Both the position numbers and the translations under genes were made by a program. From Halomarina rubra (GTDB taxonomy: Archaea; Halobacteriota; Halobacteria; Halobacteriales; Haloarculaceae), in NCBI RefSeq assembly GCF_023699475.1, contig NZ_JALXFV010000003.1, forward strand, positions 257,873 through 321,872: a stretch of 64,000 nt of DNA. The letters are read 5' to 3'. Position 1 is the stretch's first letter. Each line of letters opens with the position of its first letter. Below are positions 24,719-39,518 of this stretch, one piece after another. Below the pieces are notes generated by a model that saw only the letters and a program-made list of their open reading frames with translations, had not been told where the DNA came from and searched no databases.

Positions 24719-24792
24719 CCGCTCTTAGCTCAGTCTGGCAGAGCAGTCGACTGTAGATCGACTTGCCCCCCGTTCAAATCGGGGAGAGCGGA
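24719..24792 (+). tRNA. tRNA-Tyr (GUA)
   Basis: 74 bases including the discriminator A, no intron. Acceptor stem CCGCTCT/AGAGCGG pairs perfectly (C1-G72 is an archaeal Tyr identity pair). The D arm is TAGCTCAGTCTGGCAGAGCA, the anticodon stem GTCGA/TCGAC encloses loop CTGTAGA with anticodon GTA, and the T arm is CCCCG-TTCAAAT-CGGGG. CCA is not encoded. The 3' end is repeated twice downstream. Confidence 0.96.
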
Positions 24793-25080
24793 CTACCTTC
24801 TCGCGGCGACTGTGAACGAGCGAAGCGAGTGAACCAGCGCCGCGTGTGGTGTCCAACACGACCCGATTTGAGCAACGAGCGACGGCTGGGAGCGAGTGAG
24901 TTCAAATCGGGGAGAGCGGACTTCTTCGTGACCGAACCGCGAGCGAAGCGAGTACGGTGAGGTCGAGAAGACACCCCAACACGATTTGAAGAGACGAGAC
25001 GCAGCGCGACCGGGAGGAGCGACCGTCTCGGCGCGTTCAAGTCGGGGAGAGCAAACCGCTACTGCACGCGGCAGTGGGAA
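24793..25080. repeat. Two extra copies of the tRNA-Tyr 3' end within hairpin repeats
   Basis: The 23-base tRNA end gttcaaatcggggagagcgg-act (24772-24794) recurs exactly at 24900-24922 and in shorter form (18 bases, one change) at 25035-25052. Each copy is the right arm of a long hairpin whose left arm is its reverse complement: CCCGATTTGA (24862-24871) and CGATTTGAA (24982-24990). Between them are hairpins with the gagcgaagcgagt core, such as CGCGGCG/CGCCGCG (24802-24808, 24838-24844). No gene is present in this stretch. Confidence 0.85.
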
Positions 25081-26669: not shown

Positions 26670-26743
26670 GCCGCCTTAGCTCAGACTGGGAGAGCACTCG
26701 ACTGAAGATCGAGCTGTCCCCGGTTCAAATCCGGGAGGCGGCA
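26670..26743 (+). tRNA. tRNA-Phe (GAA)
   Basis: 74 bases with discriminator A, no intron. Acceptor GCCGCCT/AGGCGGC pairs perfectly, anticodon stem CTCGA/TCGAG encloses CTGAAGA (anticodon GAA), and the T arm is CCCGG-TTCAAAT-CCGGG. CCA is not encoded. The 3' end is duplicated 120 bases downstream. Confidence 0.96.
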
Positions 26744-27179
26744 TTTTCCTGCGAACGAAGTGAGCAGTGAAAATGCTCGCGACCGGTTTGAACCCTGCAA
26801 GTCGCAACCTGCGAGCGCAGCGAGCAGGTCCGTCTTGTTCCGGTTCAAATCCGGGAGGCGGCATGGCGTTTTCACGCGAATCACGTTCGAGAGGGCTGCG
26901 GCTCTCGACTGAGACTCGAGCCGTCGCCAACGTATCTGTGCACCTCGAGCGGATTCCGAACCAGACGAGTCCGAGCGAAGTGAGTCCCGATGCGGCCGCA
27001 CAAAACTACTGTGCGGTCGCGACGCCGAAGCAGAGCGGGCCGACACCCCCAGATGACCGGCCGTTCGGAGGCCGGACCGTGTCGGGGACGACCCGTCCAA
27101 CCCCCACGTATGCTAGCGAGAGACACAGGAGACCGCCTGCAGAAGCCTTATGTCTGGCAAGCCATTCCAGTTAGAAGTA
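26742..27179. repeat. tRNA-Phe 3'-end copy and hairpins in a gene-free region
   Basis: The last 25 bases of tRNA-Phe plus one (26720-26744) recur exactly at 26840-26864. A reverse-complement left arm, CCGGTTTGAA (26783-26792), can pair with the copy. Two hairpins with the gcgaacgaagtgagc-like core lie between: CATTTTC/GAAAATG (26742-26748, 26769-26775) starts on the tRNA's last bases, and ACCTGC/GCAGGT (26807-26812, 26824-26829). Beyond 26880 are further imperfect palindromes (gcggccgcaca ... tgtgcggtcgc near 26993-27022). No gene is seen before cspA. Confidence 0.8.
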
Positions 27180-39090: not shown

Positions 39091-39518
39091 GGGCTGCGAG
39101 CCGTAAGCCCCCTTCTGTTCGAACCGGCATTCGGCTGAGCGCCCGCGACAGGCCGACCCTACTGGTCGTCTGCCGGGCTACCTCGACGTCGCGGGCTTGC
39201 ACCGGCGAGGGTTCGCCGTTCCACCCGTTCTCCTCCATCGGCGGTCCCGTACGACCGCGCTACCCTCGGTGGGTTAGCTCGCTTCCCTCGCGGGTCGCTT
39301 CGCCCGTTCGCGGGCGTCGCCCGCGAACGCAAGCGCGACGGTGCTCCCGTCGCGACGCACCTCATCGGTCCGGAGGAGGGGTCTCGTTTCTGTTCCATAG
39401 CCGACGGTCTCCCGTCCCGGGCTTGTGCCCGGTCGCCTGCCCGGCCGGTGGGGGGACTTTCCTCGTTTGCGTGCGTGCCAACGGGCACGCCGCCACGGTG
39501 GCCGGTCACTCGCTGCCC
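39091..39518 (-). ncRNA. rnpB: RNase P RNA
   Basis: Catalytic RNA that trims tRNA 5' leaders. Minus-strand landmarks in order: P1 strand GGGCAGCGAG (39509-39518), CR-I GAGGAAAGUC (39455-39464), UGGAACAGAAACGAGACC, the GGUGGAACGGCGAACCCUCG and GUGCAAGCCC block, GAGGUAGCCCGG, then ACAGAAGGGGGCUUACGG and the P1 partner CUCGCAGCCC (39091-39100). P1 pairs over ten positions with one A-A mismatch. About 428 bases, close to other haloarchaeal RNAs (ends estimated from P1). It lies 38 bases downstream of the pncB stop codon on the same strand; its own promoter is not obvious. No protein gene covers this stretch. Confidence 0.94.

Follow-up and report, generated by a model that had tools for sequence, protein, structure and literature searches.

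The window (the whole 64,000-nt stretch of DNA analyzed here) contains a tRNA-Tyr gene whose 3' end is repeated twice downstream of the gene, which raises the question of whether these repeats grew in place, were left by an integrated element, are maintained as a functional tail, or mark the insertion of something smaller. The tRNA-Tyr(gta) gene was called at 24719-24792/3 by ARAGORN and Rfam. Its 23-nt end, GTTCAAATCGGGGAGAGCGGACT (24772-24794), has an exact match at 24900-24922 and a second, weaker one at 25035-25057, with 83% identity over 23 nt and a single change in the first 18 nt; the spacing from the tRNA end to copy 1 and from copy 1 to copy 2 is 128 and 135 nt, respectively. Ahead of each copy lies part of the T-arm in inverted form, CCCGATTTGA at 24862-24871 and CGATTTGAA at 24982-24990, and the 282-nt tail has a folding energy of -121.7 kcal/mol against a mean of -102.1 kcal/mol for shuffled sequences (z = -4.0), folding better than 200 of 200 shuffles. 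No plausible gene is found between the copies, where the list of open reading frames includes only overlapping, mechanical ORFs. The initial annotation had described the two repeats, the reverse complement ahead of each, and the two gene-free intervals, all of which were recovered at the same coordinates. The features of this locus and of the second tRNA gene of the window are as follows.

24719..24792, plus strand: tRNA-Tyr(gta); the copied part, T54-A73, is at 24773-24792
24793..24844, plus strand: hairpin I of Tyr unit 1, directly 3' of the tRNA, with the GAGCGAAGCGAG core at 24818-24829
24862..24871, plus strand: antisense T-arm (S') of Tyr unit 1, CCCGATTTGA, complementary to the T-loop/T-stem of tRNA-Tyr and of the copy
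24872..24900, plus strand: hairpin II loop of Tyr unit 1, GCAACGAGCGACGGCTGGGAGCGAGTGAG, with two GAGCGA boxes; related type-A loops covary
24901..24920, plus strand: Tyr tail copy 1, T54-A73, 20/20 identical to tRNA-Tyr, with G53 before the copy at 24900
24921..24970, plus strand: hairpin I of Tyr unit 2, TTCTTCGTGACC...GGTCGAGAAG
24982..24990, plus strand: antisense T-arm (S') of Tyr unit 2, CGATTTGAA
24991..25035, plus strand: hairpin II of Tyr unit 2, type B, GAGACGAGACGCAGC...GACCGTCTCGGCGCG
25036..25055, plus strand: Tyr tail copy 2, 17/20 identical to tRNA-Tyr
26670..26743, plus strand: tRNA-Phe(gaa), tail T54-A73 at 26724-26743, arranged as at tRNA-Tyr
26744..26843, plus strand: tRNA-Phe unit with hairpin I, antisense T-arm CCGGTTTGAAC (26783-26793), and hairpin II AAGTCGCAACC...GGTCCGTCTT
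26844..26863, plus strand: tRNA-Phe tail copy, 20/20 identical

Copy 2 of the tRNA-Tyr tail is the older, decayed one, and the tail as a whole is probably made up of two stacked members of a family of small non-coding insertions found across the Halobacteria. The hairpin I type of Tyr unit 1 is also seen in the tRNA-Val arrays of relatives, and the head of Tyr unit 2 is also present in three congeners (genomes G002, G004, and G006). The second tRNA of the window, tRNA-Phe, which the initial annotation had passed over, is followed by one unit and then by a 20/20 repeat of its tail. In the window, the Rfam gathering score was reached only by tRNA and RNase P RNA, and relaxed thresholds gave nothing convincing for the units; the archaeal RNase P RNA gene lies on the minus strand at 39092-39517 (RF00373, 127 bits).

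Own-tail copies, defined as matches to the 20 nt from T54 to the discriminator base (positions 54-73 of the tRNA) that have no more than 5 mismatches and lie no farther than 600 nt downstream, were sought at the 166 tRNA genes of four genomes, that of the window (G000) and those of the three congeners. Such copies are found at 90 of the 166 genes, compared to 1 of 830 trials with the tails of other tRNAs, and exact 20-nt copies are found at 45 genes and in none of the 830 mismatched-tRNA controls. These controls rule out chance, and the prospect raised in the initial annotation, that other tRNA genes of this genome and its relatives carry such tails, is borne out. Upstream of the tRNAs of the window's genome, tail matches are not above background. 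Certain tRNAs are without any copy in all four genomes; among those inspected, as read directly from the sequence rather than from formal annotation, copy-less Ser-gct and Leu-cag have an apparent coding start no more than ~20 to 25 nt downstream, and copy-less Ala-tgc, by its flank, is apparently the tRNA of an rRNA operon. Such flanks are to be expected if only sites with enough space tolerate insertion. Of 80 named tRNA-Tyr loci, drawn from a wide range of haloarchaeal genera, 77 had enough downstream sequence; a copy within 300 nt is present at 33 of these, the first copies beginning 64 to 179 nt after the tRNA, and 44 of the 77 have no copy within 300 nt. Several copy-less tRNA-Tyr genes (L108, L125, L135, L081, and L093) share a different, CTNNTTYTCNNGYCGAACYGTGGC-like start of the downstream sequence, possibly another conserved trailer.

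The units of different tRNAs and species have one consensus anatomy in common, in which the tRNA is followed by hairpin I, a linker, the antisense arm S' (T-loop and T-stem, 8 to 12 nt), hairpin II, and the copy of T54-N73. The first intervals cluster at ~76 to 130 nt, and a few are longer, up to 265 nt. Hairpins are internal to the units, and end repeats are not obvious. Hairpin I often takes the form TTTTC-CTGC-GAAC..GTGA-GCAG-TGAAAA, whose 5'-GA/GA-3' steps may allow sheared pairing. Hairpin II occurs in three related forms, A (CAGG-GAGCGA-NN..NN-GAGCGA-CCG), B (ACGAGACGC...GTCTCGGC), and C (AGTCGCAGC...GACCGTCT). In an alignment of 25 type-A sequences, both GAGCGA boxes are essentially invariant, paired cells make up 94.7% (84.9% in shuffles), double-change cells number 43 (13.4 in shuffles), and one pair is represented by A-U, C-G, and G-C, 8 times each. 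The left edge of the copy is at G53/T54 and its right edge at N73; 75 of 82 good copies have a G just before T54, past N73 the match drops to background, and the duplicated block is probably G53-N73, that is, 21 nt.

The type-C hairpin II pattern was found in 226 of 292 Halobacteria genomes and 64 of 77 genera; the reversed pattern, run as a control, gave almost nothing. In a draw from the whole phylum, 22 of 33 Halobacteria had the type-C pattern, but none of the 164 genomes from other classes did. All nine strict hairpin II matches in the 4.07-Mb genome G000 lie at tRNA tails in the orientation of the tRNA, and 22 of 30 type-C loci from different genomes are shortly 3' of a same-strand tRNA, most of them with a tail copy. 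The hairpin II core is not bound to tRNAs in certain genera, as seen in G002 and in the genus labeled g17. At locus L057, 901-2100 (G002:C1:2952549-2952821), hairpin II units GAGACGAGACGCAGC...GACCGTCTCGGC form a tandem 111-bp array with no tRNA, located at the 3' end of a protein gene that by eye resembles XTP/dITP diphosphatase, where the hairpin I stem base-pairs with the final stretch of the coding sequence. In g17, the core is found inside a longer dispersed repeat, gaggctggggaggtgtgaggctgcggtcccgcgag...gggactcaaaggggcag (L467, L469-L471, and L473-L477 in G034; L479-L483 in G016 and G018), of which G034 has ~9 similar copies, one of them behind a TATA-like box; this repeat has no Rfam match and looks like a multicopy non-coding RNA or a mobile repeat. 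Four species of one genus (L317-L320) combine the hairpin II core with a different hairpin I, gtctcgtgagcgaagcgaacgagac, away from tRNAs.

Comparison of the congeners reveals how the units are gained. At tRNA-Pro(tgg), the tail in G004 is followed by TTCCACCTTTTAGCTTCG... and that in G000 by a 115-nt unit, a 20-nt tail copy, and TTCCACCTTTTTGCTTCG...; beyond the copy, the two genomes are nearly identical, with the flank TTCCACCTTTT... resuming directly. Filled and empty sites are similarly paired at Tyr (G004 over G006 and G006 over G002), Val-gac, Leu-taa, Gly-ccc, Arg-tcg, and Asp. Insertion is discrete, and the orthologous tRNAs of the congeners carry 0, 1, 2, or 3 units. It is also polarized: wherever orthologous arrays are shifted relative to each other, the additional unit lies on the tRNA side, and in multi-copy arrays the first copy matches the tRNA sequence better than the second does in 13 cases, worse in 2, and equally well in 9 (one-sided p = 0.0037). 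Units and copies decay with time. In 22 comparisons of orthologous units, which are partly non-independent, the substitution rate is 0.155 in the spacers and 0.139 in the copies; some copies are exact despite spacer divergence of 16 to 20%, and others have 3 to 7 changes. The changes in the copies fit neutral decay with occasional resetting by conversion, and the exact copies amid diverged spacers suggest that gene conversion or constraint acts in some of the arrays. Selection on the copies was considered as the main force and rejected, given their divergence at nearly the rate of the spacers, even though some are exact.

The likeness of units within one array (0.559) is close to that of units from different tRNAs of the same genome (0.545); for units of the same tRNA across genomes it is 0.602, with 12% exceeding 0.75 versus 0.2 to 0.3%. 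Tandem duplication was rejected as the main source of units because array neighbors are usually unrelated, the exceptions being Arg-tcg in G006, whose units 1 and 3 are 0.93 alike, and Val-gac at L489, whose units 2 and 3 are near-identical. In the assembly of G519, the number of units behind tRNA-Val(gac) differs among contigs C163, C151, and C123 (L489, L493, and L494), which are perhaps strain variants and offer candidate recent gains or losses, including near-identical neighboring units. Two near-identical tRNA-Gly(tcc) loci with the same unit lie ~3 kb apart in G039 (L484 and L485, at G039:C1:3344500 and 3347550).

The antisense arm S' follows the sequence of its own tRNA. With respect to tRNA base 57, A57 is matched by T in 47 units and G57 by C in 25, leaving 8 exceptions among 80 units. 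For tRNA-Gly(ccc), which has the unusual T-loop TTCAATTC, S' is GAATTGAA or GAATCGAA, and for tRNA-His, with the T-loop TTCGATTC, it is GAATCGAA. Matches of S' over 12 nt are mostly imperfect; when all T-arms of a genome are ordered by their match to S', the mean rank of the own tRNA is 0.24 over all units (0.5 by chance), and this tRNA is the best match, with ties shared, in 21.8 of 115 units versus 3.6 expected. The mean rank is 0.19 in units with exact copies and 0.29 in old units; the specificity, being present in young units and weaker with age, is lost rather than gained over time. In the old Lys-ttt unit of G004, the copy and S' have changed together at 3 of 3 positions, as they have in some other old units. 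In the S'-S pairing (S being the T-arm), G-T pairs number 33 and A-C mismatches 16, and this excess indicates that the folded strand is the sense strand; the same strand comparison in the type-A alignment gives 12 G-T versus 10 A-C.

These observations bear unequally on the possible origins of the tails. In the initial annotation, repeat growth templated from the tRNA end had been favored, with the tail and its inverted copy made in place by strand switching or slippage. Part of this proposal stands, since the copies are linked to the end of the tRNA and S' follows its own tRNA, even in recent units (e.g., GAATTGAA at tRNA-Gly(ccc)); quasi-palindrome correction, an established mechanism, could sharpen S', and the near-identical units of the Arg-tcg and Val-gac arrays are also compatible with growth in place. 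Purely local templating, however, does not account for consensus blocks common to different tRNAs and species, for array neighbors that are no more alike than units of other tRNAs, or for filled and empty sites with the ancestral flank, and an S' of ~8 to 12 nt cannot be the source of a 20-nt copy, which makes growth in place highly improbable. The shared anatomy, the unlike neighbors, and the filled and empty sites argue instead for discrete insertion of members of a dispersed family beside the tRNA. Somewhat less improbable, although still quite doubtful, are remnants of att sites, that is, the tRNA 3' end left as attR after crossover in the T-loop by the tyrosine integrases of small plasmids or proviruses, or in successive empty integrations, with the units as the residue of these events. 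Such a crossover would give the very block seen here, from T54 to the end of the tRNA, with the tRNA intact and its 3' fragment at the far end; the T-stem-loop and 3' end of tRNAs are integration regions of archaeal integrases, with the intact tRNA restored (PMC8371274), and Haloquadratum prophages are bounded by 22- to 43-nt tRNA duplications (PMC3119063). Against this, the first intervals are mostly very short, and each tRNA would need an integrase specificity of its own, whereas one covarying hairpin anatomy is found everywhere. No integrase-bearing element between the same repeats was found in a relative at the 77 tRNA-Tyr loci, with up to 8 kb of fetched DNA each, in agreement with the initial annotation, which had discounted a gene-bearing integrated element; a looser scan gave only two far tRNA-Tyr tail matches, at +864 in L074 (3 mismatches) and at +2276 in L098 (4 mismatches), and identified no gene-bearing element. 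Phage and plasmid records contain no matching element. On viral contigs, a loose pattern occurred in 120 stretches, of which 0 of 80 inspected had the unit anatomy, indicating chance matches, and the type-A pattern had 0 matches. Remnants of gene-bearing integrase elements are therefore unlikely.

The tails could also be functional 3' trailers, transcribed with the tRNA and selected as hairpins for processing, termination, or quality control or as released small RNAs. The compensatory changes and invariant GAGCGA boxes of hairpin II, the constant sense orientation with the tRNA, the wide distribution in the class, the folding of the sense strand, and the presence of the hairpin II core in the RNA-gene-like multicopy repeat of g17 are all in line with such a role. 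Yet the number of units at orthologous tRNAs of congeners varies from none to three, more than half of the tRNA-Tyr loci lack a nearby copy, copies diverge about as much as spacers, and no Rfam family matches, so that selection for a trailer function is improbable as an explanation for the tails, if slightly less so than att-site remnants. The best explanation, and a likely one, is a family of small non-coding Halobacteria insertion elements that target tRNA 3' ends, stack, and decay.

According to this explanation, the element would consist of hairpin I, S', and hairpin II, ~80 to 130 nt in total, and would insert immediately behind a tRNA gene in the orientation of the tRNA. The sequence from G53/T54 to N73 would then stand on both sides of the element, leaving the tRNA intact and a 20- to 21-nt copy at the far end. 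Repeated tRNA-proximal insertion would produce stacked units with the newest nearest the tRNA, and older units and their copies would decay or, in some cases, be lost. We infer that the repeat is a target-site duplication made by a putative trans-acting recombinase or transposase and not a tail brought in by the element; both target duplication and an element-carried tail, as in integrase-style insertion, fit these data, but the latter would need a different element for each tRNA, and one anatomy is seen at all tRNAs. The folded form may be the substrate, probably single-stranded, and S' may help to choose or hold the target T-arm. A more specific version, in which the folded single-stranded element finds the tRNA gene by pairing of S' with the T-loop/T-stem and a host enzyme inserts it at the tRNA end, duplicating G53-N73, is offered only tentatively and is more doubtful than the insertion itself. 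If it is true, most Halobacteria genomes contain tRNA-anchored arrays that grow from one end as CRISPR arrays do.

A full-length source of Tyr unit 1 was not found in 146 genomes of the family, which gave only hairpin I or hairpin II matches; the nearest relatives of its hairpin I are in tRNA-Val units, and those of its hairpin II in tRNA-Tyr and tRNA-Pro units. The units therefore look mosaic, and no jump is traced from donor to target; nor was a transposase, an integrase, or an autonomous relative of the units found. Within the four genomes, no unit with an exact tail has a near-identical counterpart elsewhere in its genome, the maximum identity between units of different tRNAs being 0.79.

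A large share of the tRNA genes in one archaeal class carry an overlooked repeat that inserts beside essential genes without harm to them. The arrays naturally record successive insertions at dozens of sites in each genome and point to a recombinase with tRNA-end specificity. They may bear on tRNA 3' processing, on the misannotation of tRNA fragments, and on how integrases find tRNA genes, with the copies serving as decoy or spare attachment sites. Archaeal tRNA fragments have been ascribed to integrations of ~9 to 23 kb and to CRISPR (PMC9897764). Searches of the open-access literature found no description of gene-less ~100-nt units at many tRNAs per genome; an earlier description elsewhere is possible.

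Several known systems resemble the units in part. Like the elements of tyrosine integrases (SSV, pNOB8, SNJ2, and HF2-like proviruses), they have the tRNA 3' end copied at the far end and the tRNA intact; unlike these, they are gene-less, with no integrase, mostly ~80 to 130 nt long, stacked, and of one anatomy for many tRNAs. The tRNA-gene-targeted retroelements (Dictyostelium TREs and yeast Ty) also prefer the neighborhood of tRNA genes, whereas the units abut the tRNA and duplicate tRNA sequence, and no reverse transcriptase is seen. CRISPR and casposon arrays likewise combine a duplicated target with the newest unit beside a fixed, leader-like end, but the units are a homologous family of structured hairpins and not arbitrary spacers, the duplication is 20 to 21 nt, and, in contrast to Cas1-bearing elements, no gene-carrying element is seen at the tRNA-Tyr loci. 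MITEs and REP/BIME sequences are likewise short, non-coding, hairpin-forming, dispersed, and probably mobilized in trans, the hairpins being common to the units and the REP/RAYT system. With MITEs, the units share a short non-coding insert, a flanking repeat (whether target duplication or carried tail), and filled and empty sites; the near-identical copies that MITEs have at several loci per genome are not seen among the units, which also have no recognized terminal inverted repeats of a known transposon. What sets the units apart from MITEs and REP/BIME is that, in the window's genome, they insert almost only behind tRNA genes and in one orientation, where they leave a 20- to 21-nt duplication specific to the tRNA, together with an antisense arm that fits the target.
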